This document shows positions 3,228 through 51,220 of a DNA stretch of 64,000 bases, in pieces. Location of the stretch: NCBI GenBank assembly GCA_003166955.1, contig PMUI01000091.1:281-64280 (forward strand), in the 5' to 3' direction. Made by a program: the position numbers and the translations under genes. Source of the stretch: Acidobacterium sp. (GTDB lineage Bacteria > Acidobacteriota > Terriglobia > Terriglobales > Acidobacteriaceae). The notes under the pieces are model-generated. The model was given only the letters and a program-made list of their open reading frames with translations. It was not told the DNA's origin and did not search any database. How positions within the stretch are numbered: position 1 is the first letter of the stretch; the number at the start of each line of letters is the position of its first letter.

Positions 3228-5909
3228 TTATCCCAGTTTCTGTTCAAACTGGCTCTGCGTGGCTTCCTCGGCGAGCGGGGAGATGGAGGCGCGCTCGGGC
3301 AGGTAGAAGCGGAAGATGGCGCCGCGGGATCCGTTCTGCTCGGCCCAGATGCGGCCGCCGTGCTGATGGACGATGGTGCGGCAGATGGCGAGGCCGAGGC
3401 CGGTACCGCCTTTCTGGCGCGAATCGGAAGCGTCGACCTGCTGGAAGCGGTCGAAGATGCTCTCCAGCTTGTCGGCGGGAACGCCGCGGCCCTCGTCGAT
3501 CACGCTGACGGTGACGCCGTCGGAAGCGCGGACGGTGACGACGCGGACGGTGGAGCGTGGCGGCGAAAACTTAATGGCGTTGCTGAGCAGATTGGTGAGC
3601 ACCTGCAGCATGCGGTCGGAATCCGCCTCGACGAAGACGGAGTTTGAGTCGCTGGCGAGATAGACTTCTTCGGAATCGGCCATGGGCTGCATGGCTTCAA
3701 TCGCCTGGCGCACAAGCTCGTCGAGGGAAATGCGGCGGAAGGCGAGAGGCGCGCGGCCTGAGGTCATGCGTTCGAGGTCGAGGATGTCGTTGATGAGGCG
3801 GACGAGGCGGTCGGAGTTAGCGACCGCGATGCGCAACAAGCTGGTTGCCTTTTCGCTGACCTCGCCGAGCAGGCCGGCGGAGAGAAGGCCGAGAGCGCCG
3901 CGGATGGAAGTAAGCGGGGTGCGCAGCTCATGGCTGACGGTGGAGATGAACTCATCCTTCATGTGGTCGAGCGCGTAGCGCTGGCTGATGTCGCGGAAGC
4001 TGAGCACGCTGCCGACGGGCTCGCCTTCTTCGACCATGGGCATGAGCGAAAACTCGACGGGGAAGCTCTTGCCGTTGCCGCGGAAGTAGACATCCTGGCC
4101 GGAGGCGCCTTCGGTGGTCTGGAAGGCTCTGCGGGTGAGGCAGGTGGAGTCGCAGCCGGCGAGGGGTGGATGGAGCAGTTCGTGGACGCGGCAGCCGATG
4201 AGCTCGGACTCGTTGCATTCCATCATGCGGGCGGCGGCGGGATTGGCGAAAGCGATGCGGTTGGTGGAGTCGACGCCGATGATGCCGTCGGCGACGGAAT
4301 TGAGGATGACGGCCTTCTGGCGGTCGAGCTGGCGGACCCGGGCTTCCTGACCGGCGCGCGCCATGAACTGGCCGACGGAGCCGCAGACGGTTTCGACGGT
4401 GGCCATCAGGTCGGGATCTTCGCGCATGAACTGGCGGGAGAAGCATTCGACCGCGGCGATGACCTGATTGCCGACGCGGACGGGAACGGCCCATCCGGAG
4501 ACGAAGCCGTTGAGACGCGCCGCGGTACGGCGCAGGAAGGTGGGATGCTGGCGGAGATCGGCGACCCAGCATGGCTTGCCGAGAGACCAGACGAGGCCGG
4601 GGAGGCCCTGGCCTCGGGAGAGCACGAGCGACTCGGTCTCCTGATGGAAGTCCTCGCTGGAGCGGCCCCGGGAGAACCAGCAGGTGCGGGGACGGATGGA
4701 GTGCTGGCTCTCGTCGACGGTCCAAAGAGCGGCAAATTCGCAGGAGAAGGTTCCGCAGAGCGCTTCGAGGACGCGGGTGAGCCCTTCGTCCATGGAGGTG
4801 GTCTCGCCGATGATCTGGCTGACGATGAGCTGAATGCGGAGGCGGCGCTCGCGGCGGTTCTGCTGGGTGACGTCACGGAAGATGCAGCGGACGGAGACGG
4901 GCTCGGACTCCTCGCGGCGGCAGCTGAGGCTGGCTTCGACTTCGACATTCTCGCCGGCGGAATTCTGCAGGCGCAGCGGGTGATGCTCGACGCGGACGCC
5001 GTGCAGGGCCTTGTGGAAGAGGGCAGCGGCTTCGGCCTGAACTTCGGGAGGGAAGGGCGATTCGAATCCAATGAGTGACTCGAACTGTGACGAATCCATG
5101 CCGAAGAGGGCCTGCCAGGAGGGATTGACGTAGAGGTAGCGGCCACGCGGGCTGAGCGTGGCGATCATCTCGGCGGAGTTGTCGAACAGGTCGCGGTAGC
5201 GCTCTTCGCTTTCGCGCAGGGCGTGTTCGGCGCGGCGGGTGGCGCTGAGATCGACGGCGATGGAGACGAGGCCCTCGACGGTTCCGGCGGAGGAACGGAC
5301 AGCGGAAAGGTAGACCATGGCCGGAAAGGTGCTGCCGTCTCTGCGGCGATAGCGCATTTCGAAACCGCGGACACGGCTGGCGGGAAAAGTGGCTACGTAG
5401 CGGACGTAAGGAAGGAGGGTGGGCGAGGTGTCGGGCGGGACCTCGGGGTGAGTGCGAAAAGCGGGCATGGAGGCGGCGAGTTGCTCGCCGACGCGGGCCA
5501 TCTCGCTTTCGGGGAAGAGCTCGGCGGCGTTGAGCTTGCCCAGCGCTTCATGAGTGCGGTAGCCGAGCATGCGTTCGGCGGCGGGATTGAAGAGATTGAT
5601 GCGACCGGTGAGGTCGCAGGCGATCATCATGGGCCCCGCGGAATCGAGGATGCTGCGATGCAGGCGGGCCACTTGCTGAAGCTGGCGCTCGCCCCGGCGT
5701 TCGCGCAGGACGGAGCGGAAGTTGGAAATGGCGATGGACACGAGGAGGGCGAGGGCCACGGTCCAGAAACCGGCAAACCAGAAGATCCACGGATGGCTCT
5801 GCGCGGGCGGACTGCCGTAGCGCGCGAGGATGAGCGCGCCCACGAGAGAAAAGGCGAGCGCGATCATGAAAGCTGGCGTGACAGTACGCGAGTGGTTGAA
5901 TCGAGTCAC
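3228..5909 (-). CDS. Membrane sensor histidine kinase with three PAS and one GAF domain
   Basis: An 893-residue kinase. Two N-terminal membrane segments (about residues 13-30 and 41-62) are followed by a PAS domain (about 85-215, with FNPAAERMLGY), a second PAS (about 235-350, with LYVNPSWQALFG), a GAF domain (about 365-515) and a third PAS (about 530-645, with IAFANPAAARMMECNE). The H-box is FISTVSHELRTPLTSIRGAL with His660. The ATPase domain follows, with the GRGVP and GGTGLGLAI boxes. No receiver is fused, so phosphate presumably passes to the separate receiver downstream. The three intracellular sensor domains point to a small cytoplasmic ligand or redox signal, but the ligand cannot be read from the sequence. 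Confidence 0.92.
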   Translation of the reverse strand: MTRFNHSRTVTPAFMIALAFSLVGALILARYGSPPAQSHPWIFWFAGFWTVALALLVSIAISNFRSVLRERRGERQLQQVARLHRSILDSAGPMMIACDLTGRINLFNPAAERMLGYRTHEALGKLNAAELFPESEMARVGEQLAASMPAFRTHPEVPPDTSPTLLPYVRYVATFPASRVRGFEMRYRRRDGSTFPAMVYLSAVRSSAGTVEGLVSIAVDLSATRRAEHALRESEERYRDLFDNSAEMIATLSPRGRYLYVNPSWQALFGMDSSQFESLIGFESPFPPEVQAEAAALFHKALHGVRVEHHPLRLQNSAGENVEVEASLSCRREESEPVSVRCIFRDVTQQNRRERRLRIQLIVSQIIGETTSMDEGLTRVLEALCGTFSCEFAALWTVDESQHSIRPRTCWFSRGRSSEDFHQETESLVLSRGQGLPGLVWSLGKPCWVADLRQHPTFLRRTAARLNGFVSGWAVPVRVGNQVIAAVECFSRQFMREDPDLMATVETVCGSVGQFMARAGQEARVRQLDRQKAVILNSVADGIIGVDSTNRIAFANPAAARMMECNESELIGCRVHELLHPPLAGCDSTCLTRRAFQTTEGASGQDVYFRGNGKSFPVEFSLMPMVEEGEPVGSVLSFRDISQRYALDHMKDEFISTVSHELRTPLTSIRGALGLLSAGLLGEVSEKATSLLRIAVANSDRLVRLINDILDLERMTSGRAPLAFRRISLDELVRQAIEAMQPMADSEEVYLASDSNSVFVEADSDRMLQVLTNLLSNAIKFSPPRSTVRVVTVRASDGVTVSVIDEGRGVPADKLESIFDRFQQVDASDSRQKGGTGLGLAICRTIVHQHGGRIWAEQNGSRGAIFRFYLPERASISPLAEEATQSQFEQKLG

Positions 5910-44163: not shown

Positions 44164-46449
44164 TTAGAAGTGAAAACGGTAGCGAACCTCCCCGTAGACC
44201 TGGCGTGGATCATTTTCATGGAAGCCGCCGAAGGTGAGGCTGTTGTCGAGCAGGACGCGCGTGTTGGCGACGTTGACCGCGTTGACGCCGAGAGACCAGT
44301 TCTCCGCGATTTCTTTGCCCGCGGACAGATCGAACGTTGTGTGCGCGGGCAGATAGTTGCCGGTGTTGGGCGACGGCGGAGCGGCGTAGCCATTGGAGAA
44401 GCCGGAGCCGTAGTAGACGTTGAATCCTGCCCAAGTGCGATGGGGCAGAGTGGCGTTAAGGCCGACGTTAAGCGTGTTGCGCTGATCGTGGTCGAGTCGT
44501 GAGTATCCGGGCGCAACGGCGCACGCGGAAGAGCCGGGAGGGAAACAGATGAGCCCGCCGGTGATGGGGCCGCGCTGCTGGGCGATCTGATTCGAATAGG
44601 CGAGATGGGCCTGGCCATAGCGCCAGAGGCGTGGTGAGCGCAGAGTCAGTTCCCAGCCCTGAATGAGCGCGCCCTGGACGGTGACGGGGATGAAGATGCT
44701 CGACTCGCCGATGTTGCTATGGTCGAGGAAATTGTTAGCGCGGGTTTGGAAGGTGTCGGCGTCGAGGAGCCAGCCGCGCCATGGAATTTCGAGGCCCAAC
44801 TGGTGTTCTTCATCGCGTTCGCCGCGGAGTGGAACGAAGCTGGTGTTGCTGGACTCCGCGAAGGCGAGAGCGGGGCCGGAGATGCTGGTGAGCGGCGGCG
44901 GTTGGTAGAAGTGGCCGTAGAAGCCGCGCAGGACCCAGCCGAGTTTGGGAATCTGCACGGCCGCGCCGATGCGCGGATAGATGGCGTTCTCGGAGATTCC
45001 GGCCTGGAAGTGGGTCTGGCGCTCGCCGCCGATGAGCGTGAGCCAGGAGGTGGGGTGGTAGTTGTCCTCGAGGAAGGCTTCTTCTACGCCACCGTTGACC
45101 TTGGAGGTCTCGGAGAAGTTCGTGGCGGTGCCGTCGTTGAAGACCGCTCCGAAAAGGTCGTTCTCGTGCTGGCCGTAGCCGTAGAGGCCTGCCTTGAATG
45201 TATTGCGTGCGACGCTGGTGGAGAAGTACGCCTGCGCGCCGGTGTACTGGCCGGTTTGTTTTGCTGTCGTGGCCGTGGGGAAATCCTGGGCGCTGGGTTC
45301 GTAGTTGGCGTCGTTGTAGTGGTAGAAGGGAGAGATTTCGAATAGAGACGACGCGCTGAGGGTGTGAATCCAGGAGAAGGTGGCAAGGCCGTCGGTTTCG
45401 TGCTGGCCGTCGCGTAGCCCGGAGGAATCGTAGATCTGGTTTTCCCAGTCATCGGAATTGCGGTCGTTCGGGATTTGGTAGTAGTCGGCGCGCAGCTGGC
45501 CGACCAGACGCAACTGGTCGTGCGGATTCTTGTTGAAGATGAGGGATGTGAATCCGCCGTAGCCGTTTTCGGCATCGTGGATTGGAGTTTCGATCGGCGC
45601 CATGAGGCCGTAGTTGCTGCGGTTGCCGTTGAGGGAGGCGAACCAGGCGAAACGCTCGGTGTGATTGCCGAGGCTGAGCTGGCTGTCGGTTTGATAAAAG
45701 CTACCAATGGTTGTTACAAATTCACCTTGGCGGCTGGTTTCAAAGCCGGTGCGGGGGACGACATTGAACATGCCATAGGTGCGGTCGCCGAGATCCGCGC
45801 CGTAGCTGCCGCGGTCGATCTCGACGGTGTCGATGTCGCGCGGATCGATTTGCGGGCCGATGTTGCTGGCGATGTTCGTATTGGGAATGGCAACGCCGTC
45901 GATCATCCAGTTGAGTTCGTGGCCGCCGCGCATATGGAGCATGTCGTGGCTCATGTAAGCGCCGGGGACGTAGTCGGTGATCATCGCGAGCGAGTTGGTG
46001 CGGTCGGCGCCGGGCGTTGCTGCGATCTCGGAGCGGCTGACCATCGTCGTGGGTGTGGCGGTGTCGAGACTGGCGAGATCGTCAGCCTGGACGACCGTGG
46101 TTTGATGAATCGACGCGACTTCAAGGGGGAAGTGCAGAATCTCCGCGCCATTCGAGGTCACGGTGATGATCTGCTGCCGCTGTGCAAAGCCGGAACTGGA
46201 GACAGTGATGACATAAACCCCGGCGGGAACGGCGGGAATGGAGAAGGAGCCTTCGGCGTTGGTTTCGGCGGTAAAGGAGAGATCGGACGCAGCGGCATTG
46301 AGAACGATGAGCGCTCCGGCGATAGGTCGGTGGGTTTGGTCATGCACGATGCCCTGCACCTGACCCAGAAGAGCGGCGTAAGCAAAAGGCGGGATAAGAA
46401 GCGGAATAACTGAAAGCAGAAATACGAGCAGCTGTATCTTTCGCAGCAT
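44164..46449 (-). CDS. TonB-dependent-receptor-like protein with N-terminal carboxypeptidase-regulatory domain
   Basis: A 761-residue outer-membrane protein. The signal peptide (residues 1-25) is followed by a CarboxypepD_reg-like domain at about 30-115 (VQGIVHDQTHRPIAGALIVLNA), a plug-like region at about 130-250 (NWMIDGVAIPNTNIASNIGPQIDPRDIDTVEIDRGSYGADLGDR) and a beta-barrel ending YRFHF. This layout is common in Acidobacteriota. CAGGAG lies 7 bases before the ATG at 46449. A plain TonB box is not obvious. The substrate is unknown; the next gene upstream encodes a small Cys/His protein, which suggests metal relevance. Confidence 0.88.
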   Translation of the reverse strand: MLRKIQLLVFLLSVIPLLIPPFAYAALLGQVQGIVHDQTHRPIAGALIVLNAAASDLSFTAETNAEGSFSIPAVPAGVYVITVSSSGFAQRQQIITVTSNGAEILHFPLEVASIHQTTVVQADDLASLDTATPTTMVSRSEIAATPGADRTNSLAMITDYVPGAYMSHDMLHMRGGHELNWMIDGVAIPNTNIASNIGPQIDPRDIDTVEIDRGSYGADLGDRTYGMFNVVPRTGFETSRQGEFVTTIGSFYQTDSQLSLGNHTERFAWFASLNGNRSNYGLMAPIETPIHDAENGYGGFTSLIFNKNPHDQLRLVGQLRADYYQIPNDRNSDDWENQIYDSSGLRDGQHETDGLATFSWIHTLSASSLFEISPFYHYNDANYEPSAQDFPTATTAKQTGQYTGAQAYFSTSVARNTFKAGLYGYGQHENDLFGAVFNDGTATNFSETSKVNGGVEEAFLEDNYHPTSWLTLIGGERQTHFQAGISENAIYPRIGAAVQIPKLGWVLRGFYGHFYQPPPLTSISGPALAFAESSNTSFVPLRGERDEEHQLGLEIPWRGWLLDADTFQTRANNFLDHSNIGESSIFIPVTVQGALIQGWELTLRSPRLWRYGQAHLAYSNQIAQQRGPITGGLICFPPGSSACAVAPGYSRLDHDQRNTLNVGLNATLPHRTWAGFNVYYGSGFSNGYAAPPSPNTGNYLPAHTTFDLSAGKEIAENWSLGVNAVNVANTRVLLDNSLTFGGFHENDPRQVYGEVRYRFHF

Positions 46450-46540: not shown

Positions 46541-46915
46541 TTACAGTGCGAGGTTCAGCGGAGGGCCGCGTTTGTGGCGGGCGCGATCGGAGGAGATGCG
46601 ATAGCCGGCTTCGGCGGCGCGGATGACCGCCGTGAAATCAGCGCCGTAGTTGGTGGCTGTGAGGCTCACTGGCGCGGCGAAGGGGTGAGGCTGCACGAGC
46701 GGAGTGTGGGCGAAGGGCGAGTACGGACACTTCTCCGAGACGACGTGGATGCGAGTGGGGATGTTCCCCAACTCCACTTTCAACGCGCATTGATGCCTGC
46801 CGCTGCGGCGGCAGCAGGCCGGCAACTGCGATGCATCGGAGCCGGAGGTGAGCGCAGGCGCGATCAGCGGAAGGCTGAAGACGAGCACCAGCAGAGTGGC
46901 GAACGCGCGTCGCAT
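46541..46915 (-). CDS. Small secreted protein with CCRR-x3-HxC motif, function unknown
   Basis: A 124-residue protein with a signal peptide (about residues 1-24) and a compact Cys/His group, ACCRRSGRHQC, at about 33-43. A second Cys is in SEKCPYSPFAH. I do not recognise a named domain. The arrangement could bind a metal, and the gene directly precedes the TonB-type receptor on the same strand with a gap of 91 bases, so the two may be co-transcribed. No homologous enzyme motif is seen. Confidence 0.65.
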   Translation of the reverse strand: MRRAFATLLVLVFSLPLIAPALTSGSDASQLPACCRRSGRHQCALKVELGNIPTRIHVVSEKCPYSPFAHTPLVQPHPFAAPVSLTATNYGADFTAVIRAAEAGYRISSDRARHKRGPPLNLAL

Positions 46916-47005: not shown

Positions 47006-48154
47006 TTACTGTGCTGTCGAGTAGTCCTGCTGCACGAGAGTCCAGATATCGCCCTTCTTCGATGTCAGGCTCAGGTGATGGGAGACGGATTCCGACGCAT
47101 CTTTATCGGGCGTGTAGGTGACCGTGTACTGGTTCTTCAGCAGAGCGGTGAGTTTGTTATAAGCCTCGTCGGCTTTGTCCTTCTTGCCCTCGATCATGTA
47201 ACCGCCGGTGGCGCTGCACATGTGCTCGAAAATTTCCTTGCCATCGATGTGCGGGCCTTCAGAGGGAGCCTGTCCCCCGCCGCGCCTGCCGCCGCCTCCT
47301 CCTCCTGGATAGCCGCCTCCCCCGCCGGGATAGCCTCCGCCGCCGACTCCACCGCGGCGGTTCTGGCCCTGATTGGGATTGTTGGTGCGTTCCTCTTCGC
47401 TCTTGAAGTAGATCGCGAAGATGGCAGCGTGCGCCGCCTGTGCGGCCTCGAGGGCATCGTTCTCGGTTTCCTTGCTGCCTTCGTCGACGCCGTCGCCGAC
47501 GATGACGAGCACGTGCTGGCCAGGTTGCTTTTTCAAAATTTCCATCGAGGCGAGATAGATAGCGTCATAGAGGGTTCCGCCGCTGTGGCCTTCGTGATGA
47601 TCCGAAGAGGACTGATCGGTGGAGTCGCTGCTGCTTTGACTGCCGGACTGACTGCCGAATTGGGGTGATCCCAGCTGATTGATGGCGTCGTGGAGCTTGT
47701 TCACGGTTCCGGTGGGGTCCTCCAGCAGATCGACTTCGCGGGCGAACTGGACCACGAAGAACTTGTCGTCGGTGCCGGGAATGGTGTGGTCGACAAAGTG
47801 GACACTGGCCAGGCGAATATCGCCAATCTCGGTGTGAAGGCCGGTGCTGGTTTGACCGAGAATGCCGAAGGTGACGGGCGACGGCTGGGCGGGCGCGAAG
47901 GACTGGATGGTCTGGATGTGGCCGTTGTCGGTGAGCGTGAGGTCGCCGGCGGCCAGGCCTTTCACTGGATCACCCTTCTTGTCGACAACGGTGACGGGAA
48001 GGGAGATTGGAGGCCCGGAAGCTGGCGCGGCTGCCGGCGCCGCGGCTGGCGTGGCGGGCTGGGATGTCGATTGCGCCGGGACGTGGATGGGGAGCGTCAG
48101 GGCCGCGATGGCGACCGCAGGGATCGAGAATCGGATGCGCGTGGATATCTGCAT
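47006..48154 (-). CDS. VWFA-domain protein of the acidobacterial VWFA-related type
   Basis: A 382-residue secreted protein. The signal peptide is followed by an Ala/Pro linker and a domain starting VTVVDKKGDPVKGLAAGDLTLTDNGHIQTIQSFAP, which is typical of the acidobacterial VWFA-related family. A von Willebrand A-type fold follows, with FFVVQFAREVDLLEDPT, GGTLYDAIYLAS and HVLVIVGDGVDEGS. The MIDAS motif is not complete in the usual DxSxS form. A Gly-rich insert (about 268-295, GGGGYPGGGGG) interrupts the C-terminal half and is probably a flexible loop. Function unknown. Confidence 0.82.
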   Translation of the reverse strand: MQISTRIRFSIPAVAIAALTLPIHVPAQSTSQPATPAAAPAAAPASGPPISLPVTVVDKKGDPVKGLAAGDLTLTDNGHIQTIQSFAPAQPSPVTFGILGQTSTGLHTEIGDIRLASVHFVDHTIPGTDDKFFVVQFAREVDLLEDPTGTVNKLHDAINQLGSPQFGSQSGSQSSSDSTDQSSSDHHEGHSGGTLYDAIYLASMEILKKQPGQHVLVIVGDGVDEGSKETENDALEAAQAAHAAIFAIYFKSEEERTNNPNQGQNRRGGVGGGGYPGGGGGYPGGGGGGRRGGGQAPSEGPHIDGKEIFEHMCSATGGYMIEGKKDKADEAYNKLTALLKNQYTVTYTPDKDASESVSHHLSLTSKKGDIWTLVQQDYSTAQ

Positions 48155-48260: not shown

Positions 48261-48758
48261 TTAACAACCCTGGCGGCGCCAGATGAGGTAGTCCACGGAG
48301 TAGCGGCCCGCTCCAAAAATCAGCGCCATGAGCGCCGCGAACAGGAAGGTGTACGGGTCGGCACCGTAGAACTGGCCGGGATTACTGATGACCGATGCGA
48401 GGGCGGCGCGGTCGGAGGTGAGGTAGGCGACCAACATGTCGCCGGCCAGCAGCAGGCCAATGAAACGTGTGGCGAACCCGCCGATGAGGAGGATTCCGCC
48501 GACGAATTCGAGCAGGGAAACGCAGATGACGGTGAAGTGGGGGGCCGGAATGTTGAGGCTCGCAAAGAAGCCGGTGGCGCGGTCGAGGTTGTGGAGTCGG
48601 CCAAATCCAGATTGGGCGAACTGCCATCCCCAGTAGACGCGGACGAGCAGGAGGAAGGGCGCGTCGAGTTTGGCGGAGAGGAACTGAAACCGGCGATAGA
48701 GCGTTGGGATGAGCCCCGAGTGCTTGGCGGGCGCCGGGGCGGTGGCAGGCGTATTCAT
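48261..48758 (-). CDS. DoxX-family membrane protein of the MNIO operon
   Basis: A 165-residue membrane protein with four predicted helices, of the DoxX family (FLLLVRVYWGWQFAQSGFGRLHN, ISLLEFVGGILLIGGFATRFIGLLLAGDML). In gig and bufferin-type loci a DoxX protein (GigT-like) is the last gene after the DUF2063 gene, exactly as here, with a 37-base gap. It may act in membrane redox or transport of the modified peptide or metal; its role is unproven. It ends the operon. Confidence 0.88.
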   Translation of the reverse strand: MNTPATAPAPAKHSGLIPTLYRRFQFLSAKLDAPFLLLVRVYWGWQFAQSGFGRLHNLDRATGFFASLNIPAPHFTVICVSLLEFVGGILLIGGFATRFIGLLLAGDMLVAYLTSDRAALASVISNPGQFYGADPYTFLFAALMALIFGAGRYSVDYLIWRRQGC

Positions 48759-48795
48759 TCGTGGTGGCTCACTCTTACAGGGAACATGGAATGCG

Positions 48796-49692
48796 TCAGG
48801 TAGTAAACCACCCCAGCATAGACCAGGTGGCGAAGGCTTCCTGGAGAAACGCGGGACGCTGGTCTTCGGGGAGGGAGCTGTCTGTCAGGGCGAGGTCGAT
48901 GGCGTCGCCCAGGGCTTTGCCCTCGATGAGCGCGGCCAGGAGACCGTATTCCTCGGTTGAAAGCGGCTTGTACCAGACAATATTTTCGTGGCGATGGACG
49001 GCAATGTGGATCACCCTGTGCGCGAGGGCGGCTACGTGGCGGACATGGCGGCGCTTGCGCGAGGTGCTGGCATTGTTTGTTGATGAGGCGCTGCTGCCGT
49101 TCTCAGTGCGGACCTGGAGCAGGAGGTCGTCAACGGGATAGGAAAGCGCGAGCACGCGCAGATGCGGCTGGAGGCGCAGCTTTGAGTTCTCGTCAATCGC
49201 GGCCAGGGATTCGGCACTGAGGCGCGGGCGCTCCTCGGAGTCGAACGCCTCAATGTGCGCCCATTCAATGCGCACCATGTCGCGCGCGAGCGTGGGGTGC
49301 GGGCCAAAATGCTCAGGATGTTTGTCGAGCCAGGCTTCGAGACGCGAACCGAGATTGCGAAGCGTGAAGGACTCGGAGGGGCAGTCGGTGAGGTAGGCTC
49401 GCATGAGCGCGTCGAATTTGGCGCGGCCGAGGATGGCCTGGAGGCCGGGGAAATCCTCTTCGAAAGACGTGTAGAGACGGAACCAGTATTGCCGATTGTA
49501 AATTTCGAGGCGCTCGAAGGAGGTCAGCCGGTCGTTGGGGCGGATGATGGCATCGGCTTCGCTGATGTTGGAAGCGCCATCGCGACGGCGGCGGGGCATG
49601 GTTTCGCCGCGCGTGAGCGGGTGCATGACGGCGGCCGCCATGCGGCGCTGAATTTCGAGAAGATTCGCGGTCTGGGTGGCGGATCCGCTCAT
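48796..49692 (-). CDS. bufC: DUF2063 / BufC-like partner of the MNIO enzyme
   Basis: A 298-residue protein. The N-terminal DUF2063 domain (about 10-110) has LLEIQRRMAAAVMHPL and SFERLEIYNRQYWFRLYTSFEEDFPGLQAILG. The C-terminal region is His-rich and probably helps bind the precursor peptide. In MNIO systems this partner (MbnC/HvfC/GigB class) forms a complex with the DUF692 enzyme. Its start codon overlaps the stop of the DUF692 gene by four bases (ATGA), consistent with a stoichiometric complex. Confidence 0.9.
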   Translation of the reverse strand: MSGSATQTANLLEIQRRMAAAVMHPLTRGETMPRRRRDGASNISEADAIIRPNDRLTSFERLEIYNRQYWFRLYTSFEEDFPGLQAILGRAKFDALMRAYLTDCPSESFTLRNLGSRLEAWLDKHPEHFGPHPTLARDMVRIEWAHIEAFDSEERPRLSAESLAAIDENSKLRLQPHLRVLALSYPVDDLLLQVRTENGSSASSTNNASTSRKRRHVRHVAALAHRVIHIAVHRHENIVWYKPLSTEEYGLLAALIEGKALGDAIDLALTDSSLPEDQRPAFLQEAFATWSMLGWFTT

Positions 49693-50618
49693 CGGGCGGC
49701 TCCTGATTCGACCAGAGCAGGATGGAGCGTTTCTGCTGCAACGGCCTGCACGGCGGCGAGGCTGTTCTGCTCAGGCGCGGCTTCGGCGGCGGCCTTCAGG
49801 GATTTGTTGGCCTTCAGCGCTTCGGCGTGGACTTCTTCGAAGCTGGGGATGTTGTCGTCCCACTCAAGGAGAGTGGCGGTGGGTCCGCAGCGTTCGATAG
49901 CGCGCGCGTAGAGACGCCAGACCGCGGGCAGCACGGGATGATCGTGCGTGTCGAGGATGTACTTTTCGAATTTGCTGTGGCCGGCGATGTGAATCTGCGC
50001 GACGCGATGCGCGGGAACCGAATTGACGTAGGTGAAGGGGTCAAAGCTGTGGTTCTTCGATGAGACGTAGATGTTGTTGACGTCGAGCAGAATGCCGCAG
50101 TCGGCGCGCTCCACCACTTCGTTGAGAAACTCCCACTCCGTCATTTCGGAGGCGTGGAACTCGGCGTAGCTTGAGACGTTTTCAACGACGACGGGAACCT
50201 CGGTGAAGTCCTGGACCTGGCGGATTTTTTGCGCTGTGACCTCGACGGCTTCCCAGGTGTAGGGCATGGGCAGCAGGTCGTGCGTGTAGCGGCCGTCGAC
50301 GGATCCCCAGCAGAGGTGGTCGCTGAGCCAGGGCGTGTTGGTGCGGCGGACGAGGCGCTTGAGCTTCTTCAGGTGCTCGCGGCTGAGCGGATCGGCGGAG
50401 CCGAAGTACATGGAGACGCCATGCTGGACAACTTTGTACTGCTCGAGAATCTGGTCGAGGACCTCCAGCGGGCGGCCGCCATCGACCATGTAGTTTTCCG
50501 AGATGATCTCGAACCAGTCGACAACGGGGTGGCGGCTGAGGATGTGCTGGTAGTGCGGAATGCGCAGACCAATGCCGACGCCGTAATCGGTGAAGCCGTT
50601 GAAGCGATTTGCGGGCAA
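49689..50618 (-). CDS. bufB: MNIO (DUF692) multinuclear iron oxidase, BufB-like
   Basis: A 309-residue TIM-barrel enzyme of the DUF692/MNIO family, which uses two or three iron ions and oxygen to modify cysteines in RiPP precursors. Candidate metal ligands in place are His66 (QHGVSM), His101 (SDHL), Glu146 (VVENVSSY), Asp179 (LLDVNN), His210 and His214 (IHIAGH), His225 (DTHDHP) and Glu252 (LLEWDD). The length matches MbnB/BufB relatives. It lies 63 bases after the Cys-rich precursor gene, across a hairpin, and overlaps the DUF2063 gene. Confidence 0.93.
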   Translation of the reverse strand: MPANRFNGFTDYGVGIGLRIPHYQHILSRHPVVDWFEIISENYMVDGGRPLEVLDQILEQYKVVQHGVSMYFGSADPLSREHLKKLKRLVRRTNTPWLSDHLCWGSVDGRYTHDLLPMPYTWEAVEVTAQKIRQVQDFTEVPVVVENVSSYAEFHASEMTEWEFLNEVVERADCGILLDVNNIYVSSKNHSFDPFTYVNSVPAHRVAQIHIAGHSKFEKYILDTHDHPVLPAVWRLYARAIERCGPTATLLEWDDNIPSFEEVHAEALKANKSLKAAAEAAPEQNSLAAVQAVAAETLHPALVESGAAR

Positions 50619-50641
50619 GGGGAACCTCGATGGAAAAGCAG

Positions 50642-50666
50642 AAGGGCCGCTGGGTAGGCGGCCCTT
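50642..50666 (-). terminator. Attenuator hairpin between precursor and MNIO gene
   Basis: On the coding (minus) strand AAGGGCCGC pairs with GCGGCCCTT around a seven-base loop, followed by CTGCTTTTCC. It lies between bufA and bufB and is a plausible partial terminator that gives more precursor than enzyme mRNA. Confidence 0.65.
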
Positions 50667-50681
50667 TGCCCTGGGGTGAAA

Positions 50682-50978
50682 CTAGTCAGGCATTTTGGAG
50701 CCGTCGGTAGCGCAGCCGCCCTTCCCTTTGCAGCTGTTCTTACCGCTGCAGCCGTTGTCGCTGCTCTTGCAGCCGCCCTGGCCCTTACAGTCGTTTTTCC
50801 CTTTACAGGAATGCTTGGCGGGTTTGTCGAGATTGACACCGGCGAACGACAGCTTGCCCGCCTTCAGAATGGGCGTTGCGGACGAGTTGACTGCTGCCGA
50901 CGCGTGCATCATTGTCGCGCCGCTCAGCAGACCGGAAACGGCCGCTGCGACCATCATGGTCTTCATGGATTGCTTCAT
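50682..50978 (-). CDS. bufA: Cys-rich RiPP precursor, bufferin-like (BufA)
   Basis: A 98-residue peptide. A signal peptide (about residues 1-28, ending HASA) precedes a mature part with exactly six cysteines: 58, 64, 70 and 77, 83, 89. They form two C-x5-C-x5-C triplets, CKGKNDCKGQGGC and CSGKNSCKGKGGC, clearly an internal duplication. The rest is Lys/Gly/Ser-rich. The MNIO enzyme downstream is expected to oxidise some of these cysteines, and related peptides bind copper. GGAGGA lies 8 bases before the ATG. The signal peptide means the product acts in the periplasm or outside. Confidence 0.9.
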   Translation of the reverse strand: MKQSMKTMMVAAAVSGLLSGATMMHASAAVNSSATPILKAGKLSFAGVNLDKPAKHSCKGKNDCKGQGGCKSSDNGCSGKNSCKGKGGCATDGSKMPD

Positions 50979-51220
50979 TTTGTCATTCCTCCATCGGATT
51001 GCGAGGACCAGACCAGGCGCCTTCTGGGAACGGGGAGCGCCGGGCGGGGGACCTCGCGGTGCGGATTAGACTACATAAACTACTACGCGTTGTGCTACTC
51101 CGCCGGATTGATTTTTCCTGGTGTTTACCGGATGTTTAAGAGCGGAGGAGCCAGGTCAGGGGTTGGGCCATCCCGCGCGGGCGGCGCGCATCTCCAATAG
51201 AAGGAAGGACTCAGGGACGA

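Follow-up and report, generated by a model that had tools for sequence, protein, structure and literature searches.

A Buf2-like RiPP operon with a double cysteine triplet in Acidobacterium and its relatives

Results

A four-gene operon of bufferin type

The 64,000-nucleotide stretch of Acidobacterium sp. analysed here (the window; contig PMUI01000091.1) carries on its minus strand, read from 50978 to 48261, four genes for, in this order, the putative precursor of a ribosomally synthesised and post-translationally modified peptide (RiPP), an MNIO enzyme, a DUF2063 protein and a DoxX membrane protein. A preliminary description made from the letters alone had proposed an MNIO RiPP operon, its genes ordered as in bufferin and gig operons and its precursor bearing six cysteines in two triplets. 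Reading of the open reading frames (ORFs) confirms the motifs, the gene order and the overlap (4 nt between the DUF2063 gene and the MNIO stop), and family matches support the operon type. The features are:

50682..50978, minus strand: Buf2-like RiPP precursor, 98 residues (ORF, NCBIfam BufA2 match below cut-off, aligned relatives)
50895..50978, minus strand: probable Sec signal peptide, residues 1-28, cut between ASA and A (by eye, from a basic start, a hydrophobic stretch and A-x-A)
50712..50807, minus strand: core holding the triplets Cys 58-64-70 and Cys 77-83-89, each C-x5-C-x5-C (sequence and spacing in relatives)
49689..50618, minus strand: MNIO of BufB type, 309 residues, TTG start (NCBIfam MNIO_BufB, Pfam PF05114)
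48796..49692, minus strand: partner protein with DUF2063 and a domain like a RiPP recognition element (RRE), 298 residues (Pfam DUF2063, AlphaFold, fold match)
48261..48758, minus strand: DoxX membrane protein, 165 residues (Pfam DoxX; NCBIfam HvfX below cut-off)

The MNIO scores 364.3 bits against Pfam MbnB_TglH_ChrH (PF05114, cut-off 25) and, at 356.5 bits, exceeds the cut-off of 310 for NCBIfam MNIO_BufB (NF050167), which places it in the bufferin maturase family; it reaches 257.9 bits against HvfB (cut-off 360), and 3bww is a relative (1.4e-50). The DUF2063 partner and DoxX also pass their Pfam cut-offs (54.1 bits against 27.2 and 64.4 against 23.6). A sequence search of the PDB with the partner gave no match, and its structural assignment comes from a fold search with its AlphaFold model (pLDDT, the predicted local distance difference score, 87). 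The best match was TglI (8hci, E 1.9e-5), as for a DUF2063 protein with an RRE-type domain, and the RRE of TbiB1 gave a weak one (E 0.78, probability 0.91). The source genome (G000; 5.4 Mb, 142 contigs, 99% complete) holds a single MNIO and a single precursor of this type by genome search.

The double triplet recurs throughout a lineage

The preliminary description had read the triplets as an internal duplication, and we compared the precursor with relatives recovered from a contig scan with a 17-precursor alignment and the peptides HSCKG[KQ]N[DSN] and [GQ]KNSCKGK. The best 80 of 350 confirmed matches make up the set of named loci (L), among which the closest relatives are metagenome-assembled genomes (MAGs) labelled Acidobacterium sp. 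and Acidobacteriaceae. The script that picked precursors required a frame to hold one C-x5-C-x5-C and two or more CKG, which biases the sample to such cores; each of the 80 loci yielded such a frame and none was discarded. The cysteines of the window precursor, at 58, 64, 70, 77, 83 and 89, form C-x5-C-x5-C-x6-C-x5-C-x5-C, and the same spacing is found in all 82 precursors (80 named loci, a second precursor of L057, and the window). Lysine follows C1, C2, C3, C4 and C5 in 81, 82, 81, 73 and 82 of them, respectively, and C6 in none. The window precursor is slightly unusual in having serine after Cys77, leaving four Cys-Lys sites where relatives have up to five. The double triplet is thus real but not private to this gene: it is the rule of a lineage, beyond chance.

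The operon is conserved along with its precursor. An MNIO gene was matched in 78 of the 80 loci, DUF2063 in 73 and DoxX in 68, and in 67 all three lie 3' of the precursor with order and strand kept. Unmatched genes are mostly explained by contig or locus ends, including both loci without an MNIO match, where the sequence stops at the precursor; L061 and L109 have no DoxX match despite enough flanking sequence, and in L079 DoxX sits on the opposite side. Two genomes of the window's genus carry a long membrane-protein-like frame between precursor and MNIO (L027, 8634-9563; L032, 6868-7894). Double-triplet precursors also occur in two MAGs labelled Methylacidiphilales (L108) and Chthoniobacterales (L119); because the L108 MNIO nests among acidobacterial MNIOs in our tree, transfer or mis-binning is possible.

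Relation to canonical Buf2 and other known systems

Buf2 bufferins (BufA2, Buf_6/12Cys) are described by six conserved cysteines, present in 90% of cases, and an ABC operon with DoxX (PMC12452194), a wider sense of Buf2 that takes in the window operon. The two also share a signal-peptide-like start, the precursor-MNIO-DUF2063-DoxX order, a BufB-type MNIO, Cys-Lys motifs and, with many canonical sequences, the x5-x5-x6-x5 register of the first five cysteines. We regard the double triplet as this lineage's form of the six-cysteine pattern already described (PMC12452194).

A plasmid search that used the window precursor found nothing, and we reached canonical Buf2 through an MNIO search and a Pseudomonas precursor query; of 11 plasmid loci taken, L151 was excluded, no precursor being read in it. 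Ten Pseudomonadota plasmid precursors (L150, L152, L212-L219) have x5-x5-x6-x5-x12, twice in tandem in L219, and all exceed the NCBIfam BufA2 (NF050166) cut-off of 60, at 62.2 to 102 bits (on fragments for L213, L218 and L219); a Paraburkholderia precursor scores 83.8 bits. Ten Acidobacteriota precursors (L183-L192) also exceed it, with x5-x5-x8-x5-x13 except in L183 and L188 (x5-x5-x8-x5-x12) and L189 (x5-x5-x6-x5-x12). Thus the last cysteine follows x12 or x13 in 20/20 single-unit precursors read above the cut-off, whereas in the window's lineage it stands 5 residues past Cys5. Lysine follows C1 in none of these 20, as against 81 of the 82 double-triplet precursors, where C1 stands in a CKG context, and the canonical C-terminal tail is absent from the window's lineage.

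Those six-cysteine double-triplet precursors that were scored reach 27 to 47 bits against BufA2. The split has an exception in L033, a tandem 12-cysteine precursor that passes the cut-off with 64.6 bits summed from three stretches; a further frame in G360 passes by summing, its spacing unread. L021, tried as a BufA2 match, proved a false hit of the model. Tandem or enlarged double triplets were found in ten loci (L033, L198-L201, L203, L205, L207, L209, L210), five cysteines in two (L038, L206), and one double triplet with further Cys in L204; L211 is unclassed. Other Acidobacteriota carry tandem precursors, L033, L199 and L203 among them, that resemble the window precursor in that each half is x5-x5-x6-x5-x5, and differ in having two units per precursor and MNIOs in a separate starred clade.

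The enzymes divide in the same way. A maximum-likelihood tree was built from 58 MNIO rows, picked from fetched loci (L189, L200 and L216 excluded for too short an MNIO match). In it a branch with support 98/91 separates 29 six-cysteine double-triplet, 9 tandem and 2 five-cysteine rows from 18 canonical ones, which fits a single origin of the double triplet. As the window precursor neither reaches the BufA2 cut-off, scoring half of it, nor has the spacing of members (x5-x5-x6/8-x5-x12/13), we name the operon a distinct Buf2-like variant and keep it out of the BufA2 equivalog. None of 61 relatives passes the cut-off and 17 match more weakly, which suggests that the curated model omits a soil lineage. 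In a control, however, the model gave no match in Caulobacter vibrioides, said to hold a Buf2, and absences by NF050166 therefore carry little weight.

Other known systems lie further off. Buf1 bufferins (DUF2282) and gig operons (for context, PMC5413113) share the operon layout, but the window precursor has no Pfam match, hence none to DUF2282, and six cysteines against the four conserved in Buf1, and is not a Buf1. The Buf_EGKCG/oxazolin group, fontiphorins and gonophorins share the MNIO, DUF2063 partner and DoxX, yet their precursors carry Lys-Cys repeats where the window precursor has Cys-Lys. EGKCG repeats are absent from the latter. Kinship of the precursor with bufferin or HvfA families, which the preliminary description had left to a search, held for the former as a match below the BufA2 cut-off; among NCBIfam families no HvfA type matched.

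A putative ECF sigma switch in relatives, and its absence from most of the window's genus

The regions before the precursor gene were compared for the window and 79 loci with more than 200 nt, taking up to 320 nt each. On the coding strand 41 of these 80 regions contain TGTAACC, on the opposite strand 2, against a mean of 0.9 and a maximum of 4 in 50 dinucleotide shuffles. The extended form GTAACC-N15-17-[AGT][CT]TC, of the type used by extracytoplasmic function (ECF) sigma factors, is present in 38 regions (0.24 in shuffles), most often with spacing 16 and then 15. This TGTAACC-N15/16 site resembles the Caulobacter sigmaF site GTAACC-N16-CGAA at its DUF2282 operon (PMC3511200).

Models built from the named loci placed a pair of ECF sigma and zf-HC2 anti-sigma genes within flanks of up to 7 kb in 44 of the 80, a few being clipped by contig ends, either 5' of the precursor or behind DoxX; examples are L048 6959-7893, L054 5300-6234 and L082 5289-6226. 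L048, from the cultured relative Silvibacterium bohemicum, carries the motif as well as the pair. In the two pairs tested (L082, L057) Pfam found Sigma70_r2, Sigma70_r4_2 and zf-HC2. The motif accompanies the pair in 29 of the 44 loci, is missing from 15, and occurs without the pair in 12 others. Among 120 relative genomes the anti-sigma model exceeds 125 bits in 12, and in 9 of these a buf-type MNIO is no more than about 3 kb away from the match. In G027 and G092 such a match comes with no MNIO found, and in G074 the two are on different contigs. This linkage is support, not proof: the 125-bit line was set after the scores were seen, linked copies supplied the model, and the genomes and named loci are overlapping sets. 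We found no support for the ECF gene regulating itself through TGTAACC, the motif being present in 5/42 ECF upstream stretches, two of them one contig under two ids. A small membrane-protein-like gene, often adjoining the pair, was seen in L048 (7908-8540, minus strand; no Pfam match for this copy) and 19 other loci.

Sigma and anti-sigma genes are known beside related clusters: those of H. influenzae and Neisseria in the Buf_EGKCG/oxazolin group are tied to an ECF sigma and a small anti-sigma factor, with a zinc-binding anti-sigma (ZAS) motif in the meningococcal one (for RpoE2-linked clusters, PMC7907618). The bufferin survey has sigma and NrsF genes with Buf1 and not with Buf2 (PMC12452194), so that our lineage adds such a switch to Buf2-like clusters. 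The published statement has a second exception in a Novosphingobium plasmid (L215, 1-2162), where genes for a sigma factor and a DUF1109 (NrsF-type) protein stand directly 5' of a canonical six-cysteine BufA2 precursor (102 bits) and MNIO.

The window's genus departs from this pattern. The ECF-type motif is found in 0/11 genus regions (window, L040-L046, L049, L053, L056), and L057 likewise lacks TGTAACC; a genome-wide count of the pattern in G000 gave 35, with 21 for a reversed control, barely above background. The sigma/zf-HC2 pair is absent near all genus loci except L057 (genome G001), where two precursors flank the pair, followed by the MNIO (3764-5876), the sole genus member seen with it. 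The best anti-sigma match anywhere in G000 is 47 bits, on a different contig, and other genus genomes are alike, with MAG gaps possible. In place of the ECF site the genus has an element of its own:

51064..51075, minus strand: genus-conserved promoter-like element TGTAGTCTAATC, 5' of the precursor (cross-locus comparison)

In the window and 10 genus loci (11 named loci being contigs of genus genomes G001-G011) this element or a near form lies 96-164 nt 5' of the precursor; in G000 the element occurs once, at the operon. A CopY/BlaI operator considered at 51064-51100 was rejected, as cross-locus comparison gave a -10-like element instead.

Proposed function and alternatives

We consider it very probable that the operon makes a periplasmic metallophore of bufferin type and captophorin class. 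The DUF2063/RRE partner would present the precursor, still in the cytoplasm, to the MNIO, which would oxidise cysteines preceding lysine to 5-thiooxazoles; Sec would export the peptide with removal of its signal peptide, and in the periplasm it would bind excess copper or a comparable soft metal, probably with help from DoxX. We infer thiooxazole formation, export and periplasmic metal binding, with copper as the metal, from published captophorin work, the LLEWDD motif, the partner's fold match and the signal peptide. The rings that captophorin enzymes install are 5-thiooxazoles, and enzymes of Cys-Lys type carry Asp in place of FonB-Phe250 (PMC13097082); LLEWDD is present in the window MNIO and 74 of 75 related MNIOs, its Asp falling in the FonB register by our own reading through the 3bww alignment. 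The lineage's precursor would then be a Buf2 variant in which Cys6 lies beside Cys5 and CKG stands at Cys1, giving two near-equal triplets; that each triplet is one metal centre is our guess.

Several observations weigh against this assignment. The precursor matches BufA2 alone, at 30.3 bits (3.6e-7; 33.3 bits in the genome-wide search), and AlphaFold gives its core no structure (pLDDT 51). Under NCBIfam the DUF2063 partner falls below the HvfC cut-off and DoxX below that of HvfX (50.2 bits against 80), and the eight window proteins scanned with NCBIfam and Pfam include no known metal-resistance protein outside the operon. Moreover, because the window operon lacks its relatives' ECF promoter and sigma pair, stress induction is unsupported here.

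In another reading the RiPP class stands and the role is other than copper, the peptide buffering gold, mercury, zinc, cadmium or chromium, or else oxidants (hypochlorite, for example). In its favour, redox sensing is common among zf-HC2 anti-sigma factors. So speak sigmaF of Caulobacter, which controls a DUF2282/DUF692/DUF2063/DoxX operon under chromate (PMC3511200), and RpoE2 of H. influenzae, reported to act on a DoxX/COG3220/DUF2063 cluster under hypochlorite (PMC7907618). Since the bufferins and captophorins studied bind copper (PMC12452194, PMC13097082), we think it rather unlikely. A little less doubtful is a peptide with the cysteine modifications of canonical Buf2 and one metal site, with a disulfide between first and last cysteine and the double triplet as sequence drift. 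In Buf1 the central cysteines are modified and such a disulfide joins the outer ones, and the modifications of Buf2 were still unidentified in the 2025 survey (PMC12452194). The shared register of the first five cysteines fits this account, as does C6, alone among the cysteines in never preceding lysine; but the lysine after C1, missing from every canonical precursor read, does not, and a pattern identical in 82/82 is unlike drift. Very improbable, finally, is an unmodified metallothionein-like or structural cysteine-rich protein beside an MNIO with another target. Sizeable proportions of bufferin precursors do lack a linked MNIO gene (PMC12452194), yet here the MNIO adjoins the precursor wherever the locus extends past it, and the source genome holds one of each.

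The metallophore reading can be drawn further, into a picture that we offer as speculative and, taken whole, doubtful: a double-triplet captophorin lineage of Acidobacteriota, with the two Verrucomicrobiota-order MAGs as outliers, in which a relocated cysteine would give two thiooxazole copper sites without the outer disulfide, an ancestral ECF/zf-HC2 switch at TGTAACC would have been lost in the window's genus, and the peptide may serve outer-membrane metal traffic with the VWA/CCRRxGxHxC/TonB module described below. The operon is of a known kind, and we did not find its lineage-specific core architecture and regulation noted in the literature searched: four core strings of double-triplet precursors were absent from it, and no paper on the lineage came up in it, the PNAS 2024 bufferin paper and supplements lying outside that search. 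Six-cysteine DUF692 precursors have been placed nearly all in Proteobacteria (PMC8692599).

Bufferins rank with the largest RiPP families, and no count of Buf2 metals was found in the literature read. With Cys6 moved and Cys-Lys at Cys1, the lineage is a natural experiment, and comparison with canonical Buf2 would tell heterocycle-forming from disulfide-forming cysteines.

A stem-loop and the genes behind DoxX

Further features adjoin the operon genes, the last three with operon membership unproven:

50638..50669, minus strand: stem-loop in the precursor-MNIO gap, a possible attenuator or processing hairpin (folding against dinucleotide shuffles)
47006..48154, minus strand: VWA-domain protein, acidobact_VWFA (NCBIfam TIGR03436, 131.3 bits, cut-off 81.25)
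46541..46915, minus strand: secreted-looking protein of 124 residues with LPACCRR-x-G-x-H-x-C and CP motifs (conserved motifs)
44164..46449, minus strand: TonB-dependent receptor with CarboxypepD_reg (Pfam; start at an internal ATG by eye)

The precursor-MNIO gap folds more stably than its shuffles: of 77 loci (window included; median z -3.3), 56 have z < -2, against 3/77 control stretches of 105 nt inside the MNIO gene; the window gap has z -2.1. By eye the stem-loop shows little sequence conservation across loci. It may lower the enzyme relative to the precursor or shield the precursor mRNA.

Behind DoxX, the VWA and 124-residue genes adjoin in 12/12 genus genomes, followed by the receptor in 11, the remaining contig stopping short of it. 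Of the 80 named loci just 10, all of the window's genus, show matches to the three (receptor in 9), and we treat this genus-level synteny as weak evidence of shared function. The 124-residue gene is present in 52 of 150 relatives, and at 18 loci outside the genus, with 1.5-kb flanks, its neighbours include the receptor 13 times and the VWA gene twice. Because it pairs with the receptor there, and rarely with VWA, the two are a separate module, found elsewhere in Acidobacteriaceae, that turned operon neighbour in the genus. The receptor passes the Pfam cut-offs of TonB_dep_Rec, Plug and CarboxypepD_reg and has no PDB relative. No NCBIfam or Pfam family exceeds its cut-off for the 124-residue protein, in which Cys34, Cys35, His41, Cys43 and Cys63 are invariant in 10 sequences.

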